DNA of 64,000 bases from Fibrobacter sp. UWEL. Lineage in GTDB: Bacteria; Fibrobacterota; Fibrobacteria; Fibrobacterales; Fibrobacteraceae. The notes beneath the pieces were generated by a model. It had not been told where the DNA came from and ran no database searches. It was given only the letters and a program-made list of their open reading frames with translations. This document shows positions 29,958 to 48,353 of this stretch, in pieces (the first letter of the stretch is position 1; each line of letters begins with the position of its first letter). The position numbers were made by a program, and so were the translations under genes. The stretch is taken from contig NZ_FRBE01000003.1 of the NCBI RefSeq assembly GCF_900142535.1, forward strand, positions 124,001 to 188,000. The letters are read 5' to 3'.

Positions 29958-30668
29958 TTAGCACACGATTTTGCCCAAGGCAATGATGGCTGCGGTTCGT
30001 GCACGGAGTCTTGTGGGACCCAACTTCATCAGGTGAACCTTGCCGTTCTGGAATTCCTTGATGGCCTGGATTTCCGCAGGGGAGAAACCACCTTCGGGAC
30101 CTACTAACAACGTTGTGGGATTTGCCAGGGTTTCGGGGGAGGGGGCGCTTTCGCCATCCATGTCGCAAAGGACCAAGTCACCCTTGTAGCTTTTCAGCCA
30201 GTCCTTGAATTCTATGGGCCCGTCAATTTGGGTAAGCCAGGGTTTCTTGGATTGTTTTAGGCTTACAAGACTTTTTAGCTCTGCACGGCGTACCGTCTTT
30301 TTCAAGTCGGAATTCTTGGGCTCCTGGGAATAGTCCGTGCGCAGAAAGATAATGCTGTCAATTTCTGTCTGTGCCGCATGGAATACTACTTCTTCCAGGG
30401 CGTCATCCTTCAGGCAGGCGATACCTAGGGATACCTTGGGACGTTCCGTGCTAGGCGTGATGACCGTGTCAACCTGGACTTCACATGCCTTGGGGTCTGC
30501 TTTCACGATGGTGGCGTCGGCAAAATGTCCTAAACCATCGGAAAGCTGCAATACGTCACCTACGGCGGCACGGCATACGCGTACGGCGTGGGTACTTTCA
30601 TTCTCGTCCAGCGTGATCACGCCTTCGGTAATGAGCGGGCAATAGAAGCGACTATCAGGAGTTTTCAT
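29958..30668 (-). CDS. rsmE: 16S rRNA m3U1498 methyltransferase RsmE
   Basis: SPOUT-class methyltransferase acting on U1498 of 16S rRNA. ATG 30668 (MKTPDSRFYCPL) is chosen over an upstream ATG at 30740, whose extra residues are hydrophobic and non-conserved. It has 236 residues. The knot motifs LVGPEGGFSPAEI and KLGPTRLRARTAAIIALG are diagnostic. The N-terminal PUA-like domain has HAVRVCRAAVGD. No Shine-Dalgarno is present; TATCTTGC lies 6 nt before the ATG (30674-30681). Confidence 0.93.
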   Translation of the reverse strand: MKTPDSRFYCPLITEGVITLDENESTHAVRVCRAAVGDVLQLSDGLGHFADATIVKADPKACEVQVDTVITPSTERPKVSLGIACLKDDALEEVVFHAAQTEIDSIIFLRTDYSQEPKNSDLKKTVRRAELKSLVSLKQSKKPWLTQIDGPIEFKDWLKSYKGDLVLCDMDGESAPSPETLANPTTLLVGPEGGFSPAEIQAIKEFQNGKVHLMKLGPTRLRARTAAIIALGKIVC

Positions 30669-30808
30669 GTGCTGCAAGATAGTAAAAATGAAATGTGAAG
30701 AATGGAGTATGAAGAATGCTAATAATGGCGCCTGCGGCACATTCTATAAAGGGGTATATCATCTTTCACCTTTCATCGTTCATTTTTCATTTTTTATAAA
30801 TTTACACT

Positions 30809-31606
30809 ATGACTCGAAAGCCGGTAAAAGCTGTTGTATTTGACTTGGATGGTACTTTGTACCTGAGTGGTCGTCCTTATCCTAAAGCGGTAAAGACTGT
30901 AAACAATGTGGCCAAGCACGTTCCCGTGTACTACTTAAGTAACAATACCAGCAAATCGCCGGTCTTTTACGAGAATCGCCTGAAGGTTATGGGCCTTCCT
31001 CTTCGTGACGATGCCATCATCTCGGCACTCTACCTTTCCCTGAACGCCATTCACGAAGAAGGCATCAAGAATGTTTTCTTCTTTGCAAATCCCGAAGTGA
31101 CGGAATGGTTTGCCGCACAGGATCCGAGCCTGAATTTGCGCCCTAGCGTTGCGGAAACGGAACTGGTCCTGATTGCCTATCACAACAGCTTTGATTACCG
31201 GGAACTTTGCGAATTGTCCTTCCGAGTCCAGCGTAAGATTCCTTTCTGGGTGACCCATACGGATTTTGTCTGCCCCGACGCCAACGGCCCCGTGCCTGAC
31301 ATCGGCAGCTTTATGGCCTTGCTGAAAACCGCCTACGGCGTAGAACCGGAACGAAGCTTCGGGAAGCCTAATCCAGCGATGTTGTCGGAACTTCTGAAGA
31401 AGTACGACCCTGAAGAAATCCTGTTCGTGGGGGATCGCCTGTATACGGACTTTGAATTGGCCAAGCGTAGCGGTTGCCGGTTTGTTCTGCCTCTTTGTGG
31501 CGAAACAAAGTTGGCTGACTTGGAAAAGCTGGATGTGAAGCCCGAAGTGGTGGTGGACATGGTCAGCGATATTGACTTTGAAGGTTTCTTCGAGGGACGA
31601 ATCTAA
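30809..31606 (+). CDS. HAD-IIA family phosphatase (NagD-like)
   Basis: Haloacid-dehalogenase-type sugar or nucleotide phosphatase, 265 residues. Motif I is VFDLDGTLYL (Asp nucleophile), motif II is YLSNNTSKS, and motif III/IV is FGKPNPAML...ILFVGDRLYTDFELAKRSG, all as in the NagD/p-nitrophenylphosphatase subfamily. The true substrate is unknown. The start has no Shine-Dalgarno but has TAAATTTA 4 nt before the ATG. The stop overlaps the znuA start (TAATG), which makes it first gene of the zinc-uptake operon; the functional link is unclear. Confidence 0.85.
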   Translation: MTRKPVKAVVFDLDGTLYLSGRPYPKAVKTVNNVAKHVPVYYLSNNTSKSPVFYENRLKVMGLPLRDDAIISALYLSLNAIHEEGIKNVFFFANPEVTEWFAAQDPSLNLRPSVAETELVLIAYHNSFDYRELCELSFRVQRKIPFWVTHTDFVCPDANGPVPDIGSFMALLKTAYGVEPERSFGKPNPAMLSELLKKYDPEEILFVGDRLYTDFELAKRSGCRFVLPLCGETKLADLEKLDVKPEVVVDMVSDIDFEGFFEGRI

Positions 31607-32532
31607 TGAGTCGTCTTGAACGTTTTTTCTTCCGTCACCCTGAGCGCAGCGTAGCGAAGTCGAAGGGCCTAGTAGTATTACTCTTGCTTTTCTGCTTGGC
31701 TCTGCCGTCCCTTGCAGCAGACCTGACGGTAGCTGTTTCTCTCCAGCCATATTCCAGTGTGGTTCATGAAATCGGTGGAGAGCAGGTGAACGTGGTCTCC
31801 ATGGTTCCCGCAGGTTCTGGCCCCCATACATTTGAACCTAAGCCCGCTTCCCTCAAGGAATTCGCCAAGGCTACAGTTTACTTCAGTGACGGATCCGGTA
31901 TGGATGCCGCCTGGTTGCCTCGTTTCAAGGGCGTGAACAAGAACGTGAATGTCATTTCCCTCTCTCAAGGAATTTCCTGGATGGAAGAAGATGAACATCA
32001 TCATCACGAAGGCGAGGAACATCATCCCGAGGGCGAAAAAGATGAGGATGAGTTGGATCCCCACCTGTGGACATCTCCCGTCCAGATGATGCAGATTGCA
32101 GAAAATGTCTGCGAAGCTCTCATGTCTCTGGACGCCGCCCATAAGGACCTTTACCGCAAGCGCGCCAATGACTTGATCTTCCGCCTGAAAAAGTTGGACG
32201 TGGAGCTGCGCCAGACCGTCAAAAAGCTTCCCGCCAATGGCCGCACCTTTATCGTCTTCCATCCGGCTTATGGCTACTTCGCCCGAGATTACGGCATGAA
32301 ACAGCTTACGGTGGAAGTGGCCGGCAAGGAACCGAAACCTCGTGACCTGGCAAACCTGATAAAGACCGGTAAGGCCAACAATGTCCATATTGTTTTCGTC
32401 CAGCCCCAGTTTAGCAAGCGTGCTGCTGCCACCATCGCAAAAGAACTGAACGCAAAGATTCTGGATACGGATCCCCTGGCTTACGATTACGAAGGCAATA
32501 TCCGTGCACTTTTAAAATCCATTAGTCAATAA
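31606..32532 (+). CDS. znuA: Zinc ABC transporter substrate-binding protein (ZnuA-like)
   Basis: Periplasmic metal-binding protein of the cluster A-I family, 308 residues. The signal peptide core is LVVLLLLFCLALPSLAA. Predicted metal ligands are H74 (GPHTFEPKP), H153 (LDPHLW), H219 (FHPAYG) and a C-terminal Asp (DTDPLA). A His/acid-rich loop (HHHHEGEEHHPEGEKDEDELDPH, about 131-153) is typical of zinc-specific members. The residues before the signal core (about 10-21, RHPERSVAKSKG) are a translated interspersed repeat. znuC follows after 5 nt; no permease gene is present. Confidence 0.88.
   Translation: MSRLERFFFRHPERSVAKSKGLVVLLLLFCLALPSLAADLTVAVSLQPYSSVVHEIGGEQVNVVSMVPAGSGPHTFEPKPASLKEFAKATVYFSDGSGMDAAWLPRFKGVNKNVNVISLSQGISWMEEDEHHHHEGEEHHPEGEKDEDELDPHLWTSPVQMMQIAENVCEALMSLDAAHKDLYRKRANDLIFRLKKLDVELRQTVKKLPANGRTFIVFHPAYGYFARDYGMKQLTVEVAGKEPKPRDLANLIKTGKANNVHIVFVQPQFSKRAAATIAKELNAKILDTDPLAYDYEGNIRALLKSISQ
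31635..31668. repeat. CCCTGAGCG..GTCGAAGGG repeat inside znuA
   Basis: The unit reads CACCCTGAGCGCAGCGTAGC then GAAGTCGAAGGG. Its outer arms CCCT.GA / TCGAAGGG make it one of the common interspersed repeats of bacteria. It is translated as HPERSVAKSKG just before the signal-peptide core. Confidence 0.8.
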
Positions 32533-32537
32533 AATCT

Positions 32538-33308
32538 ATGAACGCAATTGAAGTCAACAACCTGTCCTTCTCTTATGGCAAGTCCAAAATCCTCGACAAG
32601 GTAAACCTTGAAATCGAGGAGAACGACTTCGTTGCAATTATTGGCCCTAATGGGGGCGGTAAGTCCACCCTCATGAAATTGATTGTGGGGCTTCTGTCCC
32701 CTGCAGAAGGTGACGTTCGACTTTTTGGGGAAAAGGTTCCTACCAAGAAGGTGGCTGTAGGCTATGTCCCCCAGAACACCAGCCGCAATCTGGAATTCCC
32801 CATTACGGTTGGCGAGTGCGTCGCACTTGGTAAAATCGGCTTGAAGGCAAAATCCCCCGAGGTGATCGCGGCCCTTTCTAAAGTTCATCTGGAGGGCTTT
32901 CTGGATCGCCGTCTGGGCGAACTGAGCGGTGGCGAACGCCAGCGAGTTTTGATTGCCCGTTCCCTGGTTTGTAATCCCCGCATTCTATTTCTGGATGAAC
33001 CTAGCAACAACATTGACGCCGCCGGCCAGGAAAACCTTTACAACCTGCTGGAAGAATTCAGCAAGACCATGACCATCGTTATCGTCACTCACGACCTGAT
33101 GGCCCTTTCCCATAAGGTCCGGAGCGTGGTCTGCGTCAACCGTAGCGTTCACTATCACGAAGGCTCCGGTCTTACCCAGCAGATGATTACAGATACTTAC
33201 GGTTGTGATGTGGACTTGATCGCCCATGGCATTCCTCATCGCGTTTTAGGAAGTCACGATCACTCCCACGGGGGCTGCTGTGAAGGACATCATCACCACC
33301 ATCACTAG
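32538..33308 (+). CDS. znuC: Zinc ABC transporter ATPase (ZnuC-like) with His-rich tail
   Basis: ATP-binding subunit for metal uptake, 256 residues. Walker A is GPNGGGKST at 36-44, signature LSGGERQRV near 129-137, and Walker B ILFLDEP near 149-155. The C-terminus is strongly His-rich and ends in six consecutive His (HDHSHGGCCEGHHHHHH, about 240-256), which could bind zinc or act as a sensor. It is 5 nt downstream of znuA. The usual membrane subunit ZnuB is missing; a lipoprotein gene follows instead. Confidence 0.88.
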   Translation: MNAIEVNNLSFSYGKSKILDKVNLEIEENDFVAIIGPNGGGKSTLMKLIVGLLSPAEGDVRLFGEKVPTKKVAVGYVPQNTSRNLEFPITVGECVALGKIGLKAKSPEVIAALSKVHLEGFLDRRLGELSGGERQRVLIARSLVCNPRILFLDEPSNNIDAAGQENLYNLLEEFSKTMTIVIVTHDLMALSHKVRSVVCVNRSVHYHEGSGLTQQMITDTYGCDVDLIAHGIPHRVLGSHDHSHGGCCEGHHHHHH

Positions 33309-33323
33309 ATTTTTGGGATAAAT

Positions 33324-34304
33324 ATGAAAAAGAATTTTAAGTGGATGACTTTGGCCCTGGCAGCCTGTGGCGCCTTTGTGGGCTGTAGCGATCAGGGCGG
33401 ATCTCCCGAATTCAACGTAGAGGATCCTTTTGACATCGTCCTTTCCAAGTCCAGCTATAGTTACAAGTCCAAGGATTCCTTGCTCATTGTGAAGGAACCT
33501 GTCTGTAAGGAAGTGAAGGAGGGCGGCCTCAAGTATTTGCAGTGGAAGAAGGAAACTTCCACTCCTGATTCCATCTTCGCTTATCGTTCCAAGTCTACCG
33601 CCTATGTGCGTGAAGATCGTGACGATGATGAGGATGGTGAAGTCGCCTACGTTTACGACGGATCTTCTTTCCCCGGCGGAAACTGGGTTCGTGCTGACGA
33701 AAATAAGAATTCCATCCATCACGCGCTGGTATTCTCTTCCGGGGTCCTGAAGAAGACTTTCCAGTATGATGGTTCCTGCTTCATGAAGTCCTTCTATACC
33801 CAGCTGTTTAACAAGAATAGTTCCTTGAAGGGCGCCGAAACTGCACTGGGCAAGTTCTACGAAATGTTCAGCGATGACGATGAGTATGAACTGGATGAAA
33901 ATGAAATCATCGAGGACATGCGCGTTCCTGATTGCGATGAACTGAGCATGCATGATGGCGACGTTGGCATTAAGGTGAATATGTTGAAAGCTTCCAGTGG
34001 TAAGATTTCCCTGAACTACTTGAACAAGACATGCCTCATCAAGTTCAGCCTTCGATATGCCAATAAGGAAAGCGATTGTCAGGATGCCTATGATGAGTAT
34101 AAGCTGAACCGCAATACGGACAAGTCCTTTGCATTTGAGGATTATGACCGCTCCATCGAGTATAGCTACGATTGCATTACGGAGCTTGTGAAGAAGGTAA
34201 AGGCCGACAGGACGACCCTCAAGAAGTCTACCGCAAGCGATGAAGATCTGGCTAAGGAAATGACATCAGCGGCAGTTGATGTAATCCTCTCTGGCTTGAA
34301 ATAA
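33324..34304 (+). CDS. Lipoprotein of unknown function
   Basis: 326 residues. The signal peptide with lipobox FVGC (MKKNFKWMTLALAACGAFVGC) predicts lipid anchoring. The mature part is acidic, with an aspartate-rich stretch (REDRDDDEDGE, about 95-105) and another (FSDDDEYELDENEIIEDM, about 180-197), and it has six Cys. No known domain is recognised. It starts 15 nt after znuC and so is probably co-transcribed with the zinc genes. Acidic stretches could bind metal, but there is no direct support. A terminator follows. Confidence 0.7.
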   Translation: MKKNFKWMTLALAACGAFVGCSDQGGSPEFNVEDPFDIVLSKSSYSYKSKDSLLIVKEPVCKEVKEGGLKYLQWKKETSTPDSIFAYRSKSTAYVREDRDDDEDGEVAYVYDGSSFPGGNWVRADENKNSIHHALVFSSGVLKKTFQYDGSCFMKSFYTQLFNKNSSLKGAETALGKFYEMFSDDDEYELDENEIIEDMRVPDCDELSMHDGDVGIKVNMLKASSGKISLNYLNKTCLIKFSLRYANKESDCQDAYDEYKLNRNTDKSFAFEDYDRSIEYSYDCITELVKKVKADRTTLKKSTASDEDLAKEMTSAAVDVILSGLK

Positions 34305-34325
34305 ACCGCGCTGGTTTTACACAGA

Positions 34326-34358
34326 AAAAGACTCCGTCCAGACAAGACGGAGTCTTTT
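34326..34358 (+). terminator. Terminator after the zinc-lipoprotein operon
   Basis: A perfect 13-bp stem (AAAAGACTCCGTC / GACGGAGTCTTTT) with a 7-nt loop and a following T-run. Confidence 0.9.
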
Positions 34359-34422
34359 GTGTTTTTTAGGAGGAGAGTAGTAGTATGAGAGAGATTCGTA
34401 TGGGAGCGCTAAAGCGCCCTAC

Positions 34423-35130
34423 CTAGCGAAGGTCAGCAACGCAACGGACGTAGAGACCCTTGGTGCGGGTTTCGTCGGTGCGGTTGATGTTCTTTGCAAC
34501 GCTGCGGAATTCCCAGGAACGACCGGTGCCCTTTTCTACAGAGGTTGCAGACCAGTAGTGACCGGAGGTATTGCTTTCGCAATAGCCGCCCCATTCCTTG
34601 CAGCCGCCCTGACCCAGGTTCTTCCAGTCAACCTTGGACTGATCCTTCTGGAAATCGCGCCATTCTCCATCATCGGGGAGGTGCCAGCCAGCGGGGCAAG
34701 CCTGCTTGGCTTCGTTGTGGCTGTAGAAGCGACCATACTTCTGGCAGTATTCTTCGCTTTCCATGAGGCACTGGTTCGGGTTGGAAATGCTAAATGCAAG
34801 ATTCTTCTTCATCCAGGCCTTGTCGCCACGGATTTCGATGCCATACTTCTTGCCGTCACGAGAATCGGTAAGAACCTTACCGTCTGCGGAAATATTCTTC
34901 TGTTGGAGAATACGGTTGAAAATTTCTTCTTCAGATAGAACTTCGCTATCTGCGGTCATCTTCACTTCGTGAGTCTTGACCATGTGAGTCTTTTGCTTGT
35001 TAGTCTTCACCATGCGGTGAGCGCCCATCTTGGGGCCTGCAGCAAAAGCGGTTGTACAAAGTGCGGACACAGCGAGAACGCTCAGTACACGTCCGGAACA
35101 CTTGACGAGAGTAGTGATTAATCCATGCAT
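34423..35130 (-). CDS. FISUMP-domain protein (Fibrobacter succinogenes major paralogous domain)
   Basis: Secreted protein of a large paralogous family typical of Fibrobacter, 235 residues. ATG 35130 is chosen because AAGGA (35139-35143) is spaced 8 nt before it; ATG 35151 lacks a site. The signal peptide ends at TTAFA. The domain (about 85-235) shows DGKKYGIEIRGDKAWMKKNLAF, CPAGWHLPDDGEWRDF, WSATSVEKGTGRSWEFRS and GLYVRCVAD, the family's signature segments. The fold is related to C-type lectin/sulfatase-modifying-factor folds. The function is unknown; a surface or adhesion role is inferred. Confidence 0.88.
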   Translation of the reverse strand: MHGLITTLVKCSGRVLSVLAVSALCTTAFAAGPKMGAHRMVKTNKQKTHMVKTHEVKMTADSEVLSEEEIFNRILQQKNISADGKVLTDSRDGKKYGIEIRGDKAWMKKNLAFSISNPNQCLMESEEYCQKYGRFYSHNEAKQACPAGWHLPDDGEWRDFQKDQSKVDWKNLGQGGCKEWGGYCESNTSGHYWSATSVEKGTGRSWEFRSVAKNINRTDETRTKGLYVRCVADLR

Positions 35131-35247
35131 AACAGCCATCCTTAATTCCATAAAAGCGCACCTTGCGAGCTCTGATAAGCCAGTGCTCTGCGCTTACATT
35201 GAAGAATATATACCGGATTATTTCAAGTTGGATGTTACAAAAAGTTT

Positions 35248-36036
35248 TCAAAGGGAAAATGTGACCCCGGTCATGCCGGGCCCTACCCAGAAAGAAAACT
35301 TTTCGTTCCGCTTTTTATGCATGGCAAGAATTCCGTAACTCACCGCGGTTCCAACCAGCGCTCCAGCCAATGCGTCAGAGGGATAATGCTTTCCTGCGGC
35401 AATCCGAAGGGCGCTTTCAAGCCCCGCCAAAGAAAAGGCCAATGCCCGTACAACCCCCGTATTTACTGAGTTCGGGTGTGTTTGAGCGAACCATTCGGAG
35501 GTGAAAACTGCAACTGTAAATGCGGCAGATGCGTGTCCCGAAAAGAAGCTTCCGTAGGCTTCGCCCTTTGCATTTTCGGCGGCCTTTTTCCCCTTTCCGC
35601 TCTCTGCATATACGTACGGTCTTGGCCAAATTTCTAAAGATCTAAGGGCTAGATTTATTCCAGATTGGAATAGTGCGGCTTGGACTAACATAAGGCTGAA
35701 AGTACCGAATTCTTGCCAGTCGGAGTCCTTGGAATACAGGGCTAAACCACCTACGGCGAGGGGGGCGACTGCAAAAACCACCCCAATATCGCTGGCCAGA
35801 TCCGCGGATTCGCTGTATCGACCTGCAAATTTACGGTCCCAGGGCAAAAGATTCCCTTTGTCCATCACATGGTCGGGGATTTCCATCTGGCTATAGAGAT
35901 AGCTGCCGAACCCGCTGGTAAGCAGGGCCATGGTTGTTAGGGGAATGTCGTTGGAATAACTGAGGCTGTATTCCTCGCGAGCTCCCGAAAGGGAGAATGC
36001 TAGAGCTAGCAGGGGGAGGATGAGCCTGATCTTCAT
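35248..36036 (-). CDS. PAP2-family phosphatase
   Basis: Membrane phosphatidic-acid or undecaprenyl-pyrophosphate-type phosphatase, 262 residues with a signal peptide (LILPLLALAFSLSGA) and several hydrophobic segments. The PAP2 motifs are visible: RSLEIWPRPYVYA (motif 1, RP), SFFSGHASAAF (motif 2, SGH) and RIAAGKHYPSDALAG (motif 3). The substrate is not predictable. No Shine-Dalgarno is present; TAGCTTAG lies 6 nt before the ATG. The C-terminal GPGMTGVT is encoded by a small CCGG-palindromic stretch that may be repeat-derived. Confidence 0.85.
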   Translation of the reverse strand: MKIRLILPLLALAFSLSGAREEYSLSYSNDIPLTTMALLTSGFGSYLYSQMEIPDHVMDKGNLLPWDRKFAGRYSESADLASDIGVVFAVAPLAVGGLALYSKDSDWQEFGTFSLMLVQAALFQSGINLALRSLEIWPRPYVYAESGKGKKAAENAKGEAYGSFFSGHASAAFTVAVFTSEWFAQTHPNSVNTGVVRALAFSLAGLESALRIAAGKHYPSDALAGALVGTAVSYGILAMHKKRNEKFSFWVGPGMTGVTFSL

Positions 36037-36091
36037 ATGGGCCTAAGCTAAAAAAATTATATTGTCAAAAAAAAGACCTTAGGTTGTTTTT

Positions 36092-37042
36092 ATGGCGAAA
36101 ACGAATAATAACCGCGAGCCCATTGTTCCCAACATGGATTTGTTTGGGGCAATTTCAGACGAGATGCGTCTGAAGATCCTCTTGCTTTTGGATCAGGCTG
36201 AATTTACGGTTAACGAGATTAAGGATATTCTGGATATTCACCAGAGTAACGCCAGCCGCCATCTGGCAAAGCTTTCTTCCTGTAACTTGCTGAAGGATCG
36301 TCGTGACGGTATCAAGGCTTATTACCGCCTAAGCGAGGAACTTTATTTGAGTGATCGCATGCTGTCCATGATTCGTGAGGCTTATGAAGATCTGTCGGAC
36401 AAGGATATTCTGAAATGCCGTGCCGCCCAGGTGCTGGAAGACCGTAGCGACAAGACTAAGGGTCAGATTCATAAACTGGATCAGGCCGGCGGAAGCCTAA
36501 AGGCTCAGATCAGCCTTTTCAGTAAGCTGATGGTTCAGTTTGACAATGCCGTGGATGTGGGGTGCGGTGAAGGGGGCGACTTGTCCCTGATGCTTGCAAA
36601 CCGCTGCAAACATGTGACATCCCTGGACTGCAATCCCAAGGTGGTTAGCGGTCTTCAGAAGATTTTAAAGCAGAAAGGTATCCAGAATGTTCAGCCCAAG
36701 GTGGCGGACATGGTCAATACGGGCCTTCCTGATGATTTTGCTGATCTTGTCCTGATGAGTCAGGTTCTCCATCATGCTATGGACCCGCGCCATGCCCTGC
36801 AGGAAGCGGTTCGTATCCTGAAGCCTAACGGGACTTTGGCCCTTTTGGACCTGGCTCAACACAAGGAAGAATCTTTCCGTACGACCCATGGCCATATCTG
36901 GCTGGGCTTCGATCGATCCCAGCTGGAATTTTTCGTGAAGGAATTGAATTGTACCATTATGGAAAGTGAAATCATCCCTAGCGAAAATGAAGTGGATAAG
37001 AAGCTTCCTGTGATTTGCATGATCTTGACGAAAAACGCGTAA
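36092..37042 (+). CDS. ArsR-type regulator fused to SAM-dependent methyltransferase
   Basis: 316 residues with two domains. An ArsR winged helix (about 15-90) has DILDIHQSNASRHLAKLSS as recognition helix. A class I methyltransferase (about 140-315) has motif I DVGCGEGGD near 155-163 and a UbiE-like SQVLHHAMDPRHALQEAVRILKPNG. No metal-binding CxC motif of arsenic sensors is seen. Fusions of this type are known; in some the methyltransferase fold senses SAM/SAH instead of methylating. It has TAGGTTGT 4 nt before the ATG and no Shine-Dalgarno. The YfhO-like gene follows after 32 nt. Confidence 0.82.
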   Translation: MAKTNNNREPIVPNMDLFGAISDEMRLKILLLLDQAEFTVNEIKDILDIHQSNASRHLAKLSSCNLLKDRRDGIKAYYRLSEELYLSDRMLSMIREAYEDLSDKDILKCRAAQVLEDRSDKTKGQIHKLDQAGGSLKAQISLFSKLMVQFDNAVDVGCGEGGDLSLMLANRCKHVTSLDCNPKVVSGLQKILKQKGIQNVQPKVADMVNTGLPDDFADLVLMSQVLHHAMDPRHALQEAVRILKPNGTLALLDLAQHKEESFRTTHGHIWLGFDRSQLEFFVKELNCTIMESEIIPSENEVDKKLPVICMILTKNA

Positions 37043-37074
37043 CAGAATTTTCTTGAGGAATTGGAATAGACTTT

Positions 37075-39855: not shown

Positions 39856-39893
39856 CCTGCGATATGGGGCTGAAAAAGCCTGCTTAAAAGCTT

Positions 39894-39923
39894 AAAGGCA
39901 AGAGGTTTTCCTCTTGCCTTTTT
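39894..39923 (+). terminator. Terminator after the YfhO-like gene
   Basis: A perfect 12-bp stem (AAAGGCAAGAGG / CCTCTTGCCTTT) with a TTTT loop and T-run. Confidence 0.92.
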
Positions 39924-39961
39924 CATGTTCAAAAAAACTCTAGCGTAGAGTTTGGACGGGG

Positions 39962-40165
39962 TTAGGGACGAGTGTCCTGTCCGGGGGGCATCTTGATGTA
40001 GTAGATGACGCAGGGGATGACGATGGCCAAAATCTGGATCAGGGGGAGGAGTACGTTATACCAGCCGGCTGCCTGAACTGCTTCGGATACCAGAAACATA
40101 TGGGCGAGAAGGAGCAGAACGTCCAGGAGGAATCCGGGGAGGATATAGAGAAGTAGTCTTGTCAT
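39962..40165 (-). CDS. Small two-helix membrane protein
   Basis: 67 residues with two hydrophobic helices (about 3-30 and 36-57) and a polar tail (KMPPGQDTRP). No family is recognised. It has no Shine-Dalgarno, but TATCTTAT lies 5 nt before the ATG (40171-40178), like several other genes here, which supports it being real. It is convergent with the YfhO-like gene and separated from it by a terminator. It could still be a spurious ORF. Confidence 0.5.
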   Translation of the reverse strand: MTRLLLYILPGFLLDVLLLLAHMFLVSEAVQAAGWYNVLLPLIQILAIVIPCVIYYIKMPPGQDTRP

Positions 40166-40257
40166 AGGCCATAAGATAAAAAAAAGCCTGTGTTTTGGTA
40201 GCGCTAAAGTGGTAAAATCCTAGAAACCTGAAAAAGGACGCGATTTGGCGTAACTTA

Positions 40258-40288
40258 TTGACTGTCAATGAGTTGCGTGTTTTAAAAT
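40258..40288 (+). promoter_or_regulatory. Possible promoter of the TPR gene
   Basis: TTGACT (40258) and TAAAAT (40283-40288), 19 nt apart, resemble sigma-70 boxes. TAAATTTA (40293-40300) lies 5 nt before ATG 40306 and is the alternative TAnnTT box. Confidence 0.3.
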
Positions 40289-40305
40289 ATGTTAAATTTA
40301 TGGGT

Positions 40306-41748
40306 ATGAATAAGAAGTTTTCTCTTTTTGCAATTGCATGTCTGTTTGCCGCTTCCCAGGCAATGGCAGAAGATCCTCGTATTGCCCAGGGTAGAGTTTT
40401 TGAATCCCAGGGAAATTATGAAATGGCTTTGGGTGAATATCGTGCCATGCTGGCCGAGGATTCCAAGAATTCCGAAGCCTATCTTGCTGCAGCCAATGTC
40501 CGCGTGAAGATGAAGGACTATAGCGGTGCACTTGCGAACTATCGCTTGGCTTATAAGTTTAATCCCAAGATGAGCGCTGCCTACGAGGGTGCCGCCAAGG
40601 TCTACGAATTGCTGGGTGACAAGAAGCGCGCCGAAGCGGAACGAGCCAAGGATCCGAAGAATATGCCTGCGGAAGAGGTTGCAGAAGCACCCGCAAAGGT
40701 TGCTGAGCCTGTCGAAGCGCCGAAACCCGCGCCCAAGGTCGCCGAGCCCGCCGAGGTGAAGACCTCGCCTAAGGTTGCTGAGCCTGTCGAAGCACCGAAG
40801 CCTGTTGAAGCTGCCAAGCCGGTGGAAAAGGTTGCTGAAGTGACCAAGCCTGCTGCTAAGGTCGCCGAGCCCGCCGAGGTGAAGCCCGCACCCAAGGCCG
40901 CCGAGCCTGCCGAGGTGCCTACAGATCCTTTCGAAAAGGGTAAGGCTCTCTTTGCTCAGGGTAAGTATAACGAAGCTGCTCCGATGTGGCGTGAAGTATT
41001 GAAGAAGACTCCTGGTCATGCCGGCGCCTATTTCTATGCAGGGCTTACCCGCTTTGAGCTGGGTGAATACGACAAGGCCGAGTTCAACTTGAAGAAAGGT
41101 CTGGAATATAAGGAAGAAGGTAACGACGCTAACTACTATCTGGCTTGCGTCTACCAGAAGTCTAATAAGACTGAACTGGAAAAGCGATTCCTGAATAATT
41201 ATCTGAAGAAGGCCGCTCCCAACGCTAAGTTCCGTCGCAAGGCAGAAAACCGTCTGGCTGAAATGGAAGCTGCAAAGGCTGAAGCCGCTGCCGCCAAGGA
41301 TGCTGAACTTGCTGCGAAGGCTGAGGCTGCCGAAGCACCTGCAGCAAAGGTCGCTGAGCCTGCCGAGGTGAAGACTGCTAAGGCTGACGTACCTGCTGTG
41401 TACAGACCCGCAAAGGCTGAGGAACCTGCCCCTGTGATGGATGCTGATGGTAATGTCCTTTCTATTGCTGGTGCTGTGGCTAAGTTCCGCGCTGGAAATC
41501 TGGAAGAAGCGCTCCAGTCCTACAAGTCCCTGCTGGAAACCCAACAGAACCCAGAGGAACGTTATTTCACCTTGCTGCAGATGGGCAATATCTACCGCGA
41601 GATGCGTGACTTCCATAGCGCTGTAACCCGCTATCGCGAAGTGGTGCAGCAGTTCCCCGACTCTGACTGGGCAACTGAAGCAGAACGTGCCCTGGAAGAC
41701 GCCGTGTGGCTTGAAAAACACGCCGGTGAACTTCCCAGACGTAAGTGA
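40306..41748 (+). CDS. Periplasmic TPR protein with KVAEPAE repeats
   Basis: 480 residues. ATG 40306 gives a clean signal peptide (MNKKFSLFAIACLFAASQAMA); ATG 40300 and TTG 40258 are upstream alternatives. N-terminal TPRs (about 24-105) are followed by a repeat region (about 125-205) with KVAEPVEAP, KVAEPAEVK and KAAEPAEV units. More TPRs (FEKGKALFAQGKYNEAAPMWREVL onward) and a second short repeat (about 345-365) come next. The C-terminal TPR pair (EEALQSYKSLLETQQNPEERYFTLLQMGNIY) resembles the BamD/YbgF type. A scaffold role in the envelope is an inference. Confidence 0.78.
   Translation: MNKKFSLFAIACLFAASQAMAEDPRIAQGRVFESQGNYEMALGEYRAMLAEDSKNSEAYLAAANVRVKMKDYSGALANYRLAYKFNPKMSAAYEGAAKVYELLGDKKRAEAERAKDPKNMPAEEVAEAPAKVAEPVEAPKPAPKVAEPAEVKTSPKVAEPVEAPKPVEAAKPVEKVAEVTKPAAKVAEPAEVKPAPKAAEPAEVPTDPFEKGKALFAQGKYNEAAPMWREVLKKTPGHAGAYFYAGLTRFELGEYDKAEFNLKKGLEYKEEGNDANYYLACVYQKSNKTELEKRFLNNYLKKAAPNAKFRRKAENRLAEMEAAKAEAAAAKDAELAAKAEAAEAPAAKVAEPAEVKTAKADVPAVYRPAKAEEPAPVMDADGNVLSIAGAVAKFRAGNLEEALQSYKSLLETQQNPEERYFTLLQMGNIYREMRDFHSAVTRYREVVQQFPDSDWATEAERALEDAVWLEKHAGELPRRK
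40696..40920 (+). repeat. Tandem KVAEPAE-coding DNA repeat
   Basis: Five or six in-frame copies of a unit related to AAGGTCGCTGAGCCTGCCGA, spaced irregularly. A further copy lies at about 41347. The same unit occurs in two other genes (39339-39437; 54871-54900 on the minus strand). Confidence 0.85.
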
Positions 41749-41790
41749 TGCAAGGTGCTCTGCGCACCCAACTCTTCTGAATGAAAAAAG

Positions 41791-41819
41791 ACCTCTGGCA
41801 AAAACCAGAGGTTTATTTT
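41791..41819 (+). terminator. Terminator after the TPR gene
   Basis: An 8-bp stem (ACCTCTGG / CCAGAGGT), loop CAAAAA, followed by TTATTTTTTT. An A-run on the left side may serve the opposite strand. Confidence 0.85.
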
Positions 41820-41833
41820 TTTGGGGTGCTCAA

Positions 41834-41929
41834 GGGACGGGGATGAGTCCGCCCTTTGCAACAAGACCTTTTATTCTTGAACGAAGGGGTGGGAGTCCAG
41901 AGGGCGGGGAAATGCCCGCCCTTTGCAAC
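41834..41929. repeat. Two G/C hairpins each followed by TTTGCAAC
   Basis: Hairpins at about 41834-41854 and 41902-41921 (GGGCGGG / CCCGCCC) are each followed by TTTGCAAC (41855-41862 and 41922-41929). A third copy lies at 28164-28185 (GGGGC-ggta-GCCCC-TTTGCAAC). Two of the three lie 2-3 nt from the stop codon of a minus-strand gene (gpsA, HD-GYP). Confidence 0.75.
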
Positions 41930-41932
41930 TGA

Positions 41933-42946
41933 TTACGCCCAGTTTTCGGCCTTGAGTTCGCGACCCCAGATTTCGGCGAAGACTTCCTTAACGGTCTTGC
42001 CACCGTAAAGCAGTGCGTACACTGCATTGACGATAGGCATATCCACGCCAAGCTTGTCTGCCAAAGCCTTGGTGCTACGGCAGGTGGGAACGCCTTCCGC
42101 AATCATCTTCATTCCAGCCAGAACCTGATCGATGGTTTCGCCCTTACCGATGTGTTCGCCCACATAACGGTTACGGCTATGCTGGGAGAGACAGGTCACG
42201 ATCAAGTCGCCCATACCGGCAAGACCTGCGAAAGTTTCGGACTGAGCGCCCATTGCCTTGCCCAGACGGCACATTTCAGCCTGACCACGGGTAAGGAGGG
42301 CTGCGCGAGTGTTGTCGCCAGCGCCAATGCCATAGAGCACGCCAGAAGCAATTGCAATGACGTTCTTCACGGAACCGCAAAGTTCCACACCGATGATGTC
42401 GGTGGAAGTATAAACGCGGAGGTAGGAGCAGCTCATTGCCTTCTGAACCAGCTTTGCGGAGTCTTCGTTGGTAGAAGCTGCAACGATGGCGGTGAGCACA
42501 TGACGGCTGACTTCTTCTGCGTGAGACGGACCGCTAAAGGCTACCATTTTGTCGTCGGTGAGCCAAGGTACCTTTTCCAGAAGGACTTCGCTCATGAGCT
42601 GGTTGGTGCCTTCCAGAATACCCTTGGTAGCGCAAACCACGACGGGTTCCTTGCCCTTTTCCGGAGTCCACTTGCCCAGGTTTTCAGCGACGCCGCCCAT
42701 GAACTGGGAGGGCACCACGATCATGACCATTTCCGCACCTTCGAGAGCTGCGTTCATGTCGGTAGTGTACTTGAAATCAGACGGGAAGATTACGCCGGGG
42801 AGCTTATCCTTGTACTGATGTTCCGTGGACAGCAGGTCTACTTCGGCCTGAGAGTTTGTCCAAAAAGTGATATCATTCTTATTTTCGTAAATCACCTGGC
42901 CCAGGGTAAGACCCCAGCCACCGGTACCTAAAACTGTAACTTTCAT
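41933..42946 (-). CDS. gpsA: Glycerol-3-phosphate dehydrogenase [NAD(P)+] GpsA
   Basis: Reduces dihydroxyacetone phosphate to sn-glycerol-3-phosphate for phospholipid synthesis. It has 337 residues. The nucleotide loop is VLGTGGWGLTLG at 4-15; CATKGILEGT, FSGPSHAEEV and the C-terminal substrate domain LCGSVKNVIAIASGVLYGIGAGDNTRAAL are diagnostic. plsY, which uses its product, lies just upstream on the same strand with a 36-nt gap, so the two steps are probably co-transcribed. Confidence 0.96.
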   Translation of the reverse strand: MKVTVLGTGGWGLTLGQVIYENKNDITFWTNSQAEVDLLSTEHQYKDKLPGVIFPSDFKYTTDMNAALEGAEMVMIVVPSQFMGGVAENLGKWTPEKGKEPVVVCATKGILEGTNQLMSEVLLEKVPWLTDDKMVAFSGPSHAEEVSRHVLTAIVAASTNEDSAKLVQKAMSCSYLRVYTSTDIIGVELCGSVKNVIAIASGVLYGIGAGDNTRAALLTRGQAEMCRLGKAMGAQSETFAGLAGMGDLIVTCLSQHSRNRYVGEHIGKGETIDQVLAGMKMIAEGVPTCRSTKALADKLGVDMPIVNAVYALLYGGKTVKEVFAEIWGRELKAENWA

Positions 42947-42982
42947 AATAAAAACCTCGTGTGAAACTTAAACTATAAAAAT

Positions 42983-43663
42983 TTAAGCCTTTGGAGTCTT
43001 TCTCTTGCTGCCAAAACCATTTTCTGTGCCATTCATCAAACGCTTGATATTACCGCGATGCTTCACGATAATGAAGATGCCGATGAGGGATGTCACGATG
43101 GCAAGGGGAAGGGTAAAGTTGTCGTACACCGGATACGGTGCGCCGCAGTAGCCCATGATGGACAGAACCACCAGCATGACGCAAGCGCCGATGCTACCGA
43201 CGGAAACGTACTTGGTGGAGATGGTCAGGACGAGCCATACTGCAAATGCGGTGAGTGCTGTAACCGGGCACAGGCAGAGGAATACGCCCAGTGCTGCCAG
43301 AACGCCCTTACCACCGCGGAAACCTGCGAAGCAAGTATAGCTGTGACCGAGAATCACCAGAAGACCAGCAACCACGGGGAGCCAAGCAGTATAGTCTGCA
43401 CCGCCTGCGGCCACCTGTGCTGCACACATCTTGAGGGCAATAAAGGGACCAAAGAATCCCTTCAGCAAGTCCATGAAGACTACGGGAAGAGCGGGCTTCC
43501 AGCCCAAGACGCGGAAGGTGTTGGTTAGACCTGCGTTCTTGGATCCGTAGTCACGGATATCAAAGTTTTTTCCTTTCGCGAGTTTTGCGATCCAGATTGC
43601 GCTGGGGATCGCCCCCAACACGTACGCTATTGGAAGACTCAGTAAACTGTTCAAGTTCTTCAT
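42983..43663 (-). CDS. plsY: Acyl-phosphate:glycerol-3-phosphate acyltransferase PlsY
   Basis: Inner-membrane enzyme that acylates glycerol-3-phosphate, first step of phospholipid synthesis. It has 226 residues and about five membrane helices. Motifs are YVLGAIPSAIWIAKLAKGKNFDIRDYGSKNAGLTN (motif 1), HSYTCFAGFRGGKGVLAALG (motif 2) and VKHRGNIKRLMNGTEN (motif 3). The start at 43663 lies inside der, which gives a 104-nt out-of-frame overlap. The first helix begins at residue 7, so a much later start is unlikely. Confidence 0.95.
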   Translation of the reverse strand: MKNLNSLLSLPIAYVLGAIPSAIWIAKLAKGKNFDIRDYGSKNAGLTNTFRVLGWKPALPVVFMDLLKGFFGPFIALKMCAAQVAAGGADYTAWLPVVAGLLVILGHSYTCFAGFRGGKGVLAALGVFLCLCPVTALTAFAVWLVLTISTKYVSVGSIGACVMLVVLSIMGYCGAPYPVYDNFTLPLAIVTSLIGIFIIVKHRGNIKRLMNGTENGFGSKRKTPKA

Positions 43664-44996
43664 CCTTTCTGAGGGTTAATTTCATATCGAAGTTCAAACG
43701 GAGGGGAGCGCCTTGGAGCTGGAACTCTTCGTAGAACTTCTTCATCAGGTAGCGCTTGTAAGATTCTGCTACCAATTCCGGAGTGCGGGTTTCGATGGCG
43801 ATGACCGGAGGTTCCACCATGATCTGGCAGGCGCGGGTCAACTGAACCACGCGAGCGTTCTGGCTGGGAACCGGATTTTCTTCCAGGAAACGAGCGAATG
43901 CCTGTGCCACATTGTCACGTCCCAGGACGCGGCGGCAGTTGGCGTAAACGGTCTGGATGGCCTGGACTACGCGGTTCACGCGCTGGCCTTCCTTGGCGCT
44001 GATGGAGAGGATAGGAACGTATTCCAGCATGGGTTCACGTTCCAGCATTTCCTTCACCATATGGTCGAAAGACTTGTCGTTCTTGTTGGGGAGAATGTCC
44101 CACTTATTCAACACCAGCACCAGGCCCTTGCCGGCCTTGCGAATGTCGGTAATGATGCGGAAGTCCTGAACTTCCAGACCGCGGGTGCAGTCCACCATCA
44201 GAACGGAAACGTCGGAGCGACGGATACTTTCCAGGGTGCGCATGTTGCTGAAGATTTCAACTTCATCATCCACCTTGGCCTTCTTGCGGAGGCCTGCAGT
44301 ATCGGTCACCACGAACTTCTTGCCGTCGACGATAAAGTCACAGTCGATGGAATCGCGGGTCGTACCCGGAATGTCGGAAACCACGGCGCGGTCTTCGTTC
44401 AGCAGGCGGTTCAGCAAGGTGCTCTTACCGGCGTTAGGACGACCCAAGATTGCGAACTTGATGGGACGTTCTTCCTTACGCTGGCCGCGAACGGGAGTGG
44501 GGAGAATGGTCACCACTTCGTCCAGTAGGGAAAGGCATGCGTAACCCGTGAGAGCGCTGATGGTGCGGGGCTGGCCAAAACCAAGCTTCAGAAATTCATA
44601 GGATTCCTGACGATCGCCACCATTCTCGCTCTTGTTGGCAACCAGAATCACCTTCTTGTCCAGCTTGCGGACAAGTCGTGCAAACTGCTGGTCCAGCTTG
44701 GTGATACCCACGCGGACATCCACCATGAACAGCACCAGGTCGGATTCCTGCACGGCGTTGAAAATCTGGGTGCGGACGCTATCTGCCAACACGTCGATGG
44801 AATCGTCCGGCAAAAATCCGCCAGTGTCCACTACGGTAAATTCATGACCCTTGAAACTAGCAGTCTGGTAATGACGATCGCGGGTGACACCATCACGGTC
44901 GCTCACCACTGCGGCACGACGGCCCAGAATGCGGTTGAACAAGGAGGACTTGCCCACGTTAGGGCGTCCAATAATACATACGATAGGTAATTTCAT
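43560..44996 (-). CDS. der: Ribosome-assembly GTPase Der (EngA)
   Basis: Double GTPase needed for 50S subunit assembly. It has 478 residues. G1 motifs are GRPNVGKSSLFN (near residue 8) and GRPNAGKSTLLN (second domain). DTGGF and DTAGL are the G3 motifs, and NKSE and NKWD the G4 motifs. A KH-like C-terminal domain is present. The last ~35 residues (EELEQFTESSNSVRVGG... RERKKL) extend beyond the usual end and overlap plsY. TATAATTT lies 7 nt before the ATG and there is no Shine-Dalgarno. Confidence 0.95.
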   Translation of the reverse strand: MKLPIVCIIGRPNVGKSSLFNRILGRRAAVVSDRDGVTRDRHYQTASFKGHEFTVVDTGGFLPDDSIDVLADSVRTQIFNAVQESDLVLFMVDVRVGITKLDQQFARLVRKLDKKVILVANKSENGGDRQESYEFLKLGFGQPRTISALTGYACLSLLDEVVTILPTPVRGQRKEERPIKFAILGRPNAGKSTLLNRLLNEDRAVVSDIPGTTRDSIDCDFIVDGKKFVVTDTAGLRKKAKVDDEVEIFSNMRTLESIRRSDVSVLMVDCTRGLEVQDFRIITDIRKAGKGLVLVLNKWDILPNKNDKSFDHMVKEMLEREPMLEYVPILSISAKEGQRVNRVVQAIQTVYANCRRVLGRDNVAQAFARFLEENPVPSQNARVVQLTRACQIMVEPPVIAIETRTPELVAESYKRYLMKKFYEEFQLQGAPLRLNFDMKLTLRKDEELEQFTESSNSVRVGGDPQRNLDRKTRERKKL

Positions 44997-45089
44997 TATG
45001 CGAAAATTATAGAAAATTTCGGGTAAGGCGAGCGTCGCGAAAAAATTCGTAATTACAAAAACCAGCAGAATTGATCCGCTGGTATTTAT

Positions 45090-45491
45090 TTAATCCGCTA
45101 ATTTTTCAATCTTTTCAACGACTGCAATGTCCGCCGGGAGCCACGGGACTGTTCGTAGATTTTCCAGGGTGAGCCACTGGGCGGATTCGTGCTCCAGCAG
45201 GGTAGGGGTGCCGTCCACGATTTCGCAGAAATAACAGTGCAAGCTCACATGGCGTTCGGGGTAGTCCTGCTCCACCGTACAGAGAAAGTCTTGCACGTCC
45301 ACTTGTATGGCAAGTTCTTCACGGAGTTCGCGTGCTAAGGCCTGCTGGTGGGTTTCGCTGGGTTCCACTTTCCCGCCGGGAAATTCCCACTGGCCTTTGT
45401 GATCGCCATAACCTCGCTGGGTGGCGTAGTAATGCATTACGTTGTTTGCACACTTGCGGATAATACCGGCAACAACTTCTAGATGCTTCAT
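45090..45491 (-). CDS. Nudix hydrolase, MutT-like
   Basis: A 133-residue Nudix enzyme. The Nudix box is complete: GGKVEPSETHQQALARELREELAI (G38-type start, REXXEE core). WEFPGGK and the overall size fit the 8-oxo-dGTP/(d)CTP pyrophosphohydrolase MutT, which removes oxidised nucleotides; other substrates are possible. It is the last gene of a three-gene minus-strand set, 29 nt after the pseudouridine synthase. Confidence 0.88.
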   Translation of the reverse strand: MKHLEVVAGIIRKCANNVMHYYATQRGYGDHKGQWEFPGGKVEPSETHQQALARELREELAIQVDVQDFLCTVEQDYPERHVSLHCYFCEIVDGTPTLLEHESAQWLTLENLRTVPWLPADIAVVEKIEKLAD

Positions 45492-45520
45492 GTTTCGTTT
45501 CCGCGGGTTTGTGTCGCGGG

Positions 45521-46702
45521 TTAGCGGCGGCTACGCTGGAAGTTGTTTTCCTTGCGTTCGTAGGGCTTGCGCTTCAGCTGGTCGATAACTGCCTGCAGTT
45601 CCTTAGGCAGCGGGCAATCCAGAACAATCTTATCACCGTTCCAGGTGAATTCCAGACGGCAGCTATGCAGGAAAAGGCGGTGGAGACCCAGCTCCTTCTT
45701 TACTTCATGATTGAGGGCGAAGTCCCCATAACGGGAGTCGCCCAGCAGGGGATGGCCAATGCTTGCGAAGTGTGCGCGGATCTGGTGCATACGGCCGGTT
45801 TCCAGCTGAATTTTCACCAGATCGTAACCGATGTAGTGCTGCTTCACGCGGTAGTGAGTGACGGCTTCCTTGGCGTCCTTATCATCCTGGCCCACCTTCA
45901 TCTTGCTGCCCTTGGCTGCGTCGGTGCGGGTTAGCTTTTCGCTGATGGTGCCACGTTCCTTGGAGAGGTTGCCCTTGACCAATGCGAAGTAATACTTGTC
46001 CACTTCATGTTCGCGGATCATGCGGGTCAATTCGCGGAGAGTGTCGCCATGGAGAGCTACCAGCAACATACCGGAAGTTTCCTGGTCTAGGCGGTGCGCA
46101 ATTGTGGGGCGAAAATCCAGCTGTTCCTTGCGGCCCCATTCCCAAAGATATTCCACTAGGCTTTCGCCGGGCTTGGTGCCGGAACCGGGCTGGCTTGCCA
46201 ATCCGGAGGGTTTGTTCACCACCAGATAGTCTTCCGTCTGGATCACGATATCCAGTTCCTGTGCGCCCCAGTTAGACTGCTTTTCGGCGCCGGACATGGT
46301 CTTTCCCCAGGTAGACTTCTTCTTGGCGAAGCCGGTGACTGCGGATTTATCGCGGGCGGCTGCGGTGCCGGGGAAGGCGATGATGTTGGTTTCTTCGCCG
46401 GATTCAAGGGCTGCTTCTCGGGCTGCTTCTCGGGCTGCGTCAACGTCAGCCTTGATCTGTGCGGACTGGGCGCGGCTCATGTCTTTTTCATCGTCGGAAA
46501 CAGACTTGAAGTTTTCGTAGATGTTTACCAGATCGCCTTCCTGGAGCATCAGGTTGGCCTTGGCCACCACGCCGTTGACGCGGACTTTCTTCTTACGGAT
46601 GATGGAGAAGAATACGGAGAGGGATTCCTCGGGGAAAGCCTTGCGGAGGAATCGGTCGAGACGCATATTTGCGAAGTTGCGGTCAATCTGGCGAGTAATC
46701 AT
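45521..46702 (-). CDS. RluA-family pseudouridine synthase with S4 domain
   Basis: Isomerises uridines in rRNA (RluC/RluD type). It has 393 residues. An N-terminal S4 RNA-binding domain (about 14-65) is followed by a charged Ala-rich linker (about 66-147) that is unusual in length, then the catalytic domain with HRLDQETSG at 203-211 (catalytic D206) and RMHQIRAHFASIGHPLLGDSRYG. The linker contains a small tandem duplication (REAAREAA). It starts 2 nt after the FAD oxidoreductase stop. Which U positions are targeted cannot be told. Confidence 0.88.
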   Translation of the reverse strand: MITRQIDRNFANMRLDRFLRKAFPEESLSVFFSIIRKKKVRVNGVVAKANLMLQEGDLVNIYENFKSVSDDEKDMSRAQSAQIKADVDAAREAAREAALESGEETNIIAFPGTAAARDKSAVTGFAKKKSTWGKTMSGAEKQSNWGAQELDIVIQTEDYLVVNKPSGLASQPGSGTKPGESLVEYLWEWGRKEQLDFRPTIAHRLDQETSGMLLVALHGDTLRELTRMIREHEVDKYYFALVKGNLSKERGTISEKLTRTDAAKGSKMKVGQDDKDAKEAVTHYRVKQHYIGYDLVKIQLETGRMHQIRAHFASIGHPLLGDSRYGDFALNHEVKKELGLHRLFLHSCRLEFTWNGDKIVLDCPLPKELQAVIDQLKRKPYERKENNFQRSRR

Positions 46703-46704
46703 AA

Positions 46705-48339
46705 TTATTTGCTCCTCTTTGCGAAGTGAGCGAGGCGGATGCCGTCGGCGGCGCTGGTGACAATTCCGCCGGAGTAACCTGCGCCTTCACCGAGGACGTA
46801 AAGACCCTGGGTGTTGACGCTTTCCAACGTGTCGTTGTTGCGGGTGATGCGGAGCGGCGAACTGGTTCGAGTTTCCGGAGCCACAATCAAACCCTCTTCA
46901 ATAAAGCCAGGAATCTTCTTGTCGAAATTCTGGAAGCCTTCTGCCAAGGAGGCGCAGATGGTCTTGTCCATCCAATCCCACATGTTGCAGTTTACAAGGC
47001 CACAAGGGTATGTTGTTTTCGGGAGGCTGCCGGCGCGGTCCTCGCGCTTGGCCAAAAAGTTCTTGATGGTCTGGGCGGGGGCGGCGTAGTTCTTGCCACC
47101 TACAGCGTAGGCGTCTGCTTCAATTTTTCGCTGCAGGTCCAGGCCGCCGAACAATGTGCCTGCGGTCTTGATGTCAAAACCCACTGCACCGGGCGTGATG
47201 GGAACTGCGATGGCGCCGTTGGCGGTAGCGCCGTTACGGCTGCTGTAGCTCATGCCGTTGGTGGCGAGGGTGCTGGGCTCCGAGGCGCAAGGCACTAGAA
47301 CACCGCCGGGGCACATACAGAAACTGTAGGCGCTGGAAGTCTTGTTCAGCGTAGGCGTTGCCAAGAAATATTCTGCGGCACCAGTCAGCTTGGTGTCGAT
47401 GTCGCGACCCAGCTGGCGCATGTTAATAAGCATCTGAGGATGTTCCACACGGACGCCCATGGCAAAAGCCTTGCTTTCCAGGGTGACGCCTCGGGCGTGA
47501 AGCATCTCGTAAATAGAGCGAGCCGAATGGCCTACAGCCAAAACCAATGCCTCGCAGGGCTGCCAATGCCCCTGGGTATTGGGGGAGGAAACGTCGCGGA
47601 ACTTCACCCCGCAAATACGCCCGTCCTTAATTTCAATATCTTCGAGTGTGGTGCTGTAGTGAATCTTGCCGCCCCGTCGTGCGATCTCTGCACGAATCTG
47701 GCGCAACATCAGAACCAGCTTGTCGGTGCCGATGTGGGGCTTCGCGAAAGTGACCACAGATTCGTCCACACCGAAGGAAACCATGTCCTTCAGCACCGCT
47801 TCAGAGAACAGGTTGCGACTGCGGGTGTTCAGCTTTCCGTCACTGAAAGCGCCTGCGCCACCTTCGCCATAAAGTACATTGCTGTAGGCGTTAAATTCGC
47901 GATTTACGAAAAAGCGGCGAATGTCGCGGAATCGTTCTTCCACCAGCTTGCCCTGTTCGTAAAGATCCACCTGGAATCCTTTACGGAGCAAATGGAGGGC
48001 GGCCCACAAACCGCTGGGGCCTGCGCCAATCACATCCACATGGCCTGCCATGGGAACGGTGTTGCGCTGCGGGTCATTTTCCAGAGATTCCGTTTCGCGG
48101 GAGGCCTCTACCAAGCCCTTGGCATGATTACCTGTGGCTCGCAGCTGGCGCTTCACATCAAAAATCACATTGTAAGACCACTTGGGGTCTCCCTTACGGC
48201 GACTATCCAGAGAAAAACGTTCCACCTGGAGATTGAAAATCTCCTCGGGATGCACACGCAATTCCCGAGCCAATGCGGCACGGTACTCACCCTTTTTAGC
48301 AAGGGCAACGGAAAGCTCTCTGTAGCGGTAAGTAAACAT
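46705..48339 (-). CDS. FAD-dependent oxidoreductase (COG2509 type)
   Basis: 544 residues. ATG 48339 (MFTYRYREL) is chosen: TATCTTTG lies 6 nt upstream, and the extra 18 residues of a start at 48393 would be read from the palindromic repeat. An N-terminal RNA-binding-like domain (about 1-75) is followed by the dinucleotide motif VIGAGPSGLWAALHLL and a C-terminal FAD-binding GLYVLGEGAGYSGGIVTSAADG, as in the YhfW/COG2509 uncharacterised flavoprotein group. The reaction is unknown. First gene of the operon with the pseudouridine synthase and the Nudix gene. Confidence 0.85.
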   Translation of the reverse strand: MFTYRYRELSVALAKKGEYRAALARELRVHPEEIFNLQVERFSLDSRRKGDPKWSYNVIFDVKRQLRATGNHAKGLVEASRETESLENDPQRNTVPMAGHVDVIGAGPSGLWAALHLLRKGFQVDLYEQGKLVEERFRDIRRFFVNREFNAYSNVLYGEGGAGAFSDGKLNTRSRNLFSEAVLKDMVSFGVDESVVTFAKPHIGTDKLVLMLRQIRAEIARRGGKIHYSTTLEDIEIKDGRICGVKFRDVSSPNTQGHWQPCEALVLAVGHSARSIYEMLHARGVTLESKAFAMGVRVEHPQMLINMRQLGRDIDTKLTGAAEYFLATPTLNKTSSAYSFCMCPGGVLVPCASEPSTLATNGMSYSSRNGATANGAIAVPITPGAVGFDIKTAGTLFGGLDLQRKIEADAYAVGGKNYAAPAQTIKNFLAKREDRAGSLPKTTYPCGLVNCNMWDWMDKTICASLAEGFQNFDKKIPGFIEEGLIVAPETRTSSPLRITRNNDTLESVNTQGLYVLGEGAGYSGGIVTSAADGIRLAHFAKRSK

Positions 48340-48345
48340 TGGCCG

Positions 48346-48353
48346 CAAAGATA
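48346..48353 (-). promoter_or_regulatory. TATCTTTG box, predicted leaderless start of the FAD gene
   Basis: An exact TAnnTTTG match on the minus strand with only CGGCCA between it and the ATG. There is no Shine-Dalgarno. The 19-bp palindrome at 48374-48392 lies 20 nt further upstream. Confidence 0.5.

Follow-up and report, generated by a model that had tools for sequence, protein, structure and literature searches.

In Fibrobacter sp. UWEL, the sequence TAnnTT most likely acts as the housekeeping −10 promoter element, and about one in six of the genes that lead a transcript would be leaderless through the spacing of this box to the start codon. Judged from DNA sequence, the probability of this reading is roughly nine in ten.

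The window is a stretch of 64,000 nt (contig 3, 124001–188000) of the 3.53-Mb genome of this strain. Together with forty 20-kb genome stretches it gave a sample of 864 kb (24% of the genome) with 632 called genes, including 375 lead (first-in-transcript) and 138 operon-internal genes. Genes were called with a coding-potential model that picked starts blind to the upstream sequence, and hence to the box. Box positions refer to the first T of TAnnTT relative to the start codon. Shine-Dalgarno (SD) strength was taken as duplex energy (strong, ≤ −6 kcal/mol; weak or none, > −4 kcal/mol), and the background rate for lead genes is that of TAnnTT at flanking positions −25 to −60. The 16S rRNA end has an intact anti-Shine-Dalgarno (GGATTACCTCCTTTA), and the nearest named relatives of the RsmE of the window all belong to Fibrobacter or Fibrobacterales, including F. 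succinogenes MAGs and F. intestinalis.

Position and consensus of the box

The initial annotation described a TAnnTT box shortly before the ATG of eight genes, and all eight boxes are present at the spacing it gave (Table 1). In the stretch holding them, TAnnTT lies at −12 to −14 in 7 of 16 called genes, compared with an expectation of 0.03 per gene (binomial p = 4e-7). Genome-wide enrichment, the check proposed by that annotation, was examined in a quarter of the genome and extends beyond the window: 71 of 583 sampled genes outside it carry the box, against 19 expected (Poisson p = 1e-19).

Table 1. Boxes and associated genes in the window (box positions given for the first T)
Feature	Position	Strand	Details
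−10 box TATCTT of rsmE	30676..30681	−	first T at −13; start codon 30668–30666
rsmE, 16S rRNA methyltransferase; predicted leaderless	29958..30668	−	PF04452, 99.6 bits
−10 box TAAATT of HAD gene	30797..30802	+	first T at −12; start 30809
HAD-family hydrolase gene; predicted leaderless	30809..31606	+	PF13344/PF13242
−10 box TAGCTT of PAP2 gene	36045..36050	−	first T at −14; start 36036; T tract precedes
PAP2-family phosphatase gene; probably leaderless	35248..36036	−	PF01569, 64 bits
TAGGTT before ArsR fusion, read as no promoter box	36080..36085	+	relatives: GGAG + GTG
TATATT, likely real −10 box of ArsR-methyltransferase gene	36058..36063	+	leader ~22 nt
ArsR-HTH/methyltransferase fusion gene; leadered, not leaderless	36092..37042	+	PF01022 + PF08241
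−10 box TATCTT of small membrane protein gene	40173..40178	−	first T at −13; start 40165
67-aa membrane protein gene; predicted leaderless	39962..40165	−	tblastn relatives, residues 1–67 or 1–66
−10 box TAAATT of TPR gene	40293..40298	+	first T at −13; start 40306
TPR protein gene; predicted leaderless	40306..41748	+	start ATG 40306, not 40300
−10 box TATAATTT of der	45004..45011	−	TATAAT at −15 or TAATTT at −13; start 44996
der (engA) GTPase gene; predicted leaderless	43560..44996	−	PF01926 ×2, PF14714
−10 box TATCTT(TG) of FAD gene	48348..48353	−	first T at −14; start 48339
FAD-dependent oxidoreductase gene; predicted leaderless	46705..48339	−	PF21688, 193 bits
Further box TACATT, outside the span of the initial annotation	25009..25014	+	at −12 of gene starting 25021

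Before the lead genes of the sample, TAnnTT occurs 27 times at −12, 23 times at −13 and 11 times at −14. From −25 to −60 the background is flat, with about 5.5 genes for each position, and the single occurrence at −11 marks a hard edge of the peak. The peak stands seven-fold above background in lead genes with weak or no SD (n = 191), and the 108 strong-SD lead genes have no box at −12 to −14. SD energy is above −4 kcal/mol for 60 of the 61 boxes at these positions and at or below −6 kcal/mol for none, a mutual exclusion that is partly forced because box and SD share the same bases. The start codons of 67 boxed genes are ATG in 64 cases and GTG in three.

An unsupervised EM motif search of the 375 lead genes, which was not given TAnnTT, returned TTTTcTATATTTgggcca as its top motif, with a main peak placing the box at −12/−13. 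When genes are aligned on the box, its 5′ side is directly flanked by some five T-rich positions and no clear −35 is visible. The final G of TATATTTg is weak at protein genes (0.31–0.34). The tRNA genes carry a TATATTTG-like box 16–28 nt before the tRNA, and several of these boxes have TTTACA or TTGACA (TTKACA) about 17 nt further upstream. The same box at genes that have no start codon indicates that TAnnTT is the housekeeping −10 element of Fibrobacter, with the consensus TTTTcTATATTTg.

A pyrimidine occupies −1 in 27/27 genes boxed at −12 and 21/23 boxed at −13 (together 48/50); the share is 68% among SD-led genes and 49% among operon-internal genes (boxed versus SD-led, Fisher p = 3e-5). 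This Y(−1)R(+1) step reads as an initiator that would place +1 at the first base of the ATG. Where SD-led genes have a box further out, C then A is preferred at the equal offset of 11–12 nt, with no ATG there.

The 67 boxed genes have no conserved column 20–30 nt upstream of the box that would correspond to a −33 TTTG element. A conserved −35 in the leaderless set was likewise unconvincing: TTKACA, with up to one mismatch at 15–19 nt, was found in 19% of 43 genes versus 7% of shuffles. Four RpoD-like sigma factor ORFs (298, 303, 242 and 270 aa) have no long N-terminal region, and the 298-aa ORF is the best sigma-70 match. CarD assists promoter melting in other groups rich in leaderless genes. 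A stand-alone gene of CarD size was not found here, the two CarD_TRCF matches lying in frames of 1141 and 780 residues, and CarD has been reported absent from Fibrobacter (PMC4593161).

The box could instead act in translation, its AT richness at −12 aiding 30S binding on a normal leader. Bacteroidetes, without SD, show AT enrichment centred at −12/−13 (PMC3155529), a second study (PMC6847099) concerns Kozak-like positions in Bacteroidetes, and the box genes of Fibrobacter likewise lack an SD. However, the motif is TA..TT with a T tract on its 5′ side, it also occurs at tRNA genes and at −32 to −41 of leadered genes, and the Y/R step at the start codon comes after it. It is also nearly absent from operon-internal genes (motif match in only 4 of 138), which need translation too. 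A translational role is on these grounds very improbable, and the −10 element remains the preferred reading.

Conservation and start codons of individual genes

At rsmE, TAnnTT is found at −12 to −14 in all 54 named Fibrobacter loci. Columns of the T tract, the box and position −1 carry much information, those at −6 to −2 and beyond −23 little, indicating that box and spacing are kept while the flanks drift. Among four rsmE loci of another genus, designated g7, several lie directly behind an apparent tRNA 3′ end (GGTTCGAATCCCTCTCCCTCTTC); these have no box at −12 to −16 and may be co-transcribed with the tRNA.

The der box is present in 29/29 genus loci and in 15/20 loci elsewhere in the class (other genera, families and orders), including leaderless-type GTG starts. 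Corresponding boxes were found in 28 of 29 genus rows for the TPR gene, and in 11 of 12 genus loci plus most of the family for the FAD gene. The HAD box occurs in 19 of 22 relatives; it is missing from the three in which the gene overlaps the end of the upstream ORF, which fits a promoter rather than a translation signal. Six of eight rows retain the box of the small membrane gene, the remaining two having SD-like purine runs. Two starts of this gene score about equally. One is 40165, and alignments of orthologues begin at residue 1 of that form. For PAP2, TTTTTTTAGCTTAGG is preserved in the nearest relatives.

Start prediction is imperfect, and at the TPR gene the upstream one of two ATGs is wrong: the box fits only 40306, not the in-frame ATG at 40300, and orthologues back 40306. 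The boxes might then be promoters whose true start codons lie further downstream, giving ordinary leaders. Against this, in der, which reads MKLPIVCIIGRPNVGKSS, the GTPase motif GRPNVGKS starts at residue 10, and the HAD protein begins MTRKPVKAVVFDLDGTLY, so that a later start would leave an incomplete protein in both cases; orthologues align from residue 1 or close by. We consider misplaced starts very improbable as a general explanation, and prefer promoters adjoining correctly called start codons.

The initial annotation took all eight genes to be leaderless. This holds up for seven, but the ArsR-methyltransferase fusion can be ruled out: its genus relatives have a GGAG-type site before a GTG, AAAAAATTATATTG is conserved in the nearest of them, and so is a TATATT about 34 nt upstream of the start. 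The accompanying claim that none has an SD is borne out for rsmE, HAD, der, TPR and FAD (−1.1 to +1.7 kcal/mol), and is less clear for PAP2 (−2.4) and the ArsR fusion (−3.5). Overall, these comparisons support its interpretation of the boxes as promoters of leaderless genes. The short pattern TAnnTT may match AT-rich intergenic DNA by chance at single genes, as at the ArsR fusion, and by the flanking rate some of the listed boxes (about 9 of 72) will be of this kind, but for the set chance is effectively refuted by the sharp position, by the enrichment outside the window and by the conservation of box and spacing over drifting flanks.

The PAP2 and ArsR fusion genes diverge across only 55 bp (36036–36092). 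With hardly a gap between the PAP2 box and the likely ArsR box, their promoters must overlap. Elsewhere in the window, an Rfam ftsZ-DE RNA (RF02985, 83.6 bits) was detected at 24817–24886 (+), in the gap that precedes the gene with start 25021. Elsewhere in the genome, a 20-kb stretch (C8, 110001–130000) has 38% GC, compared with about 50% for the genome, and is a probable mobile or foreign island.

Leader lengths and phylogenetic range

Motif matches before lead genes number 72 at −12 to −16, 26 at −17 to −31 and 50 at −32 to −41. These two humps imply leaders that are either absent or about 20–30 nt long. The bimodal promoter spacing, together with an SD energy of −6 kcal/mol or below in 108 of 375 lead genes, agrees with the earlier suggestion that two initiation modes coexist. 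After subtraction of the flanking rate, about 17% of lead genes look leaderless, which we would extrapolate to roughly 300 genes in the whole genome. Boxes at −14 to −16 may give leaders of 1–4 nt rather than exact leaderless ends.

In the proposed mechanism, RNA polymerase with the primary sigma factor would initiate on the A of the ATG or at most about 4 nt upstream, and the resulting mRNA, with a 5′-terminal AUG (GUG in some relatives), would be recognised by the ribosome without SD pairing. A promoter placed 32–41 nt upstream would give leaders of 20–30 nt, and operon-internal genes would mostly use a Shine-Dalgarno. The transcriptional part is strongly supported by the sequence patterns, from which we infer that transcripts do start at these sites. 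Translation of the predicted leaderless mRNAs is proposed from established knowledge, leaderless mRNAs elsewhere having been shown to enter ribosomes without SD pairing.

The range of the trait was surveyed with a strict pattern, TTTNNTANNTT with 6–10 nt before an ATG, using as controls the reversed pattern and a spacing shifted to 11–15 nt. The Fibrobacter sp. UWEL genome has 204 strict matches versus 61 reversed and 72 at shifted spacing. An excess over the reversed pattern was found in every searched genome of the genus, and an excess over shifted spacing also in the sampled other families of class Fibrobacteria. Six genomes from other classes of the phylum show almost no difference in count between the two spacings, indicating that within the phylum the trait is confined to class Fibrobacteria. 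One genus of the family has about 700 strict matches versus about 230 at shifted spacing. Genus g7 (four genomes) exceeds other Fibrobacteraceae about threefold in box-plus-ATG matches, and leaderless genes may be far more numerous in it. We lean towards an old, class-wide leaderless regime, in which the promoter would be kept while a gene leads its transcript and lost on entry into an operon, with a large expansion in one genus.

Relation to known systems

Descriptions of leaderless translation usually have it common in archaea, Actinobacteria and Deinococcus-Thermus but rare in Gram-negatives such as Bacteroides; the leaderless mechanism is known in Actinobacteria and Deinococcus-Thermus. 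In Deinococcus-Thermus, the −10-adjacent ORFs described by Zhong et al. (2025, PMC12340547) resemble the present genes: the −10 box precedes the ORF by a few bp, expression depends little on a −35, and genes carrying a ribosome binding site occur alongside. That layout covers about 30% of ORFs there and is backed by reporter and RNA data, whereas Fibrobacter, a member of another phylum not named in the main text of that study, has the box TATATTTg with a 5′ T tract, at about 13% of genes before background correction. The TA-led class of Zheng et al. (2011, PMC3160421) is marked by TANNNT some 12 bp ahead of the start, interpreted as the −10 of a leaderless promoter, and its defining TANNNT-like signal, about 10–12 bp before the start and above background, is present here. 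In that survey Fibrobacteres are not among the groups with leaderless genes, although a Fibrobacter genome may sit in 'Other Bacteria', and Bacteroidetes/Chlorobi are leaderless in 1 of 37 genomes.

The initial annotation used the Bacteroidetes −7 box as its model. The likeness is sound, in that the TATATTTg box obtained by EM and at tRNA genes is near-identical to that of the sigma-ABfr promoter (−7 TAnnTTTG), and the 298-aa ORF is likewise a short RpoD-like sigma factor; the host, however, is a Fibrobacter, a relative but not a member of Bacteroidetes. In place of the −33 TTTG, Fibrobacter tRNA promoters have TTKACA at about 17 nt, and the SD, absent from Bacteroidetes, is common among Fibrobacter lead genes. 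Leaderless mRNAs are rare in Bacteroidetes, with 5′ UTRs below 10 nt making up 3.7% in B. thetaiotaomicron and 5.5% in F. psychrophilum. A logo survey (PMC3155529) found the SD of Fibrobacteres less obvious but detectable, which a mixture of two initiation modes would explain. The open-access literature yielded no report on transcription start sites or leaderless mRNA in Fibrobacter; the box, its position, consensus, conservation and phylogenetic range all come from the present analysis.

The practical uses are corrected start-codon calls, such as that of the TPR gene, and a promoter consensus for Fibrobacter, and the results suggest that a ribosome site is not always necessary in expression constructs for this genus. 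A major rumen cellulose degrader would have a conserved second initiation mode, beside Bacteroidetes that dropped the SD in another way, and the two groups would offer a comparison for the gain and loss of initiation modes.
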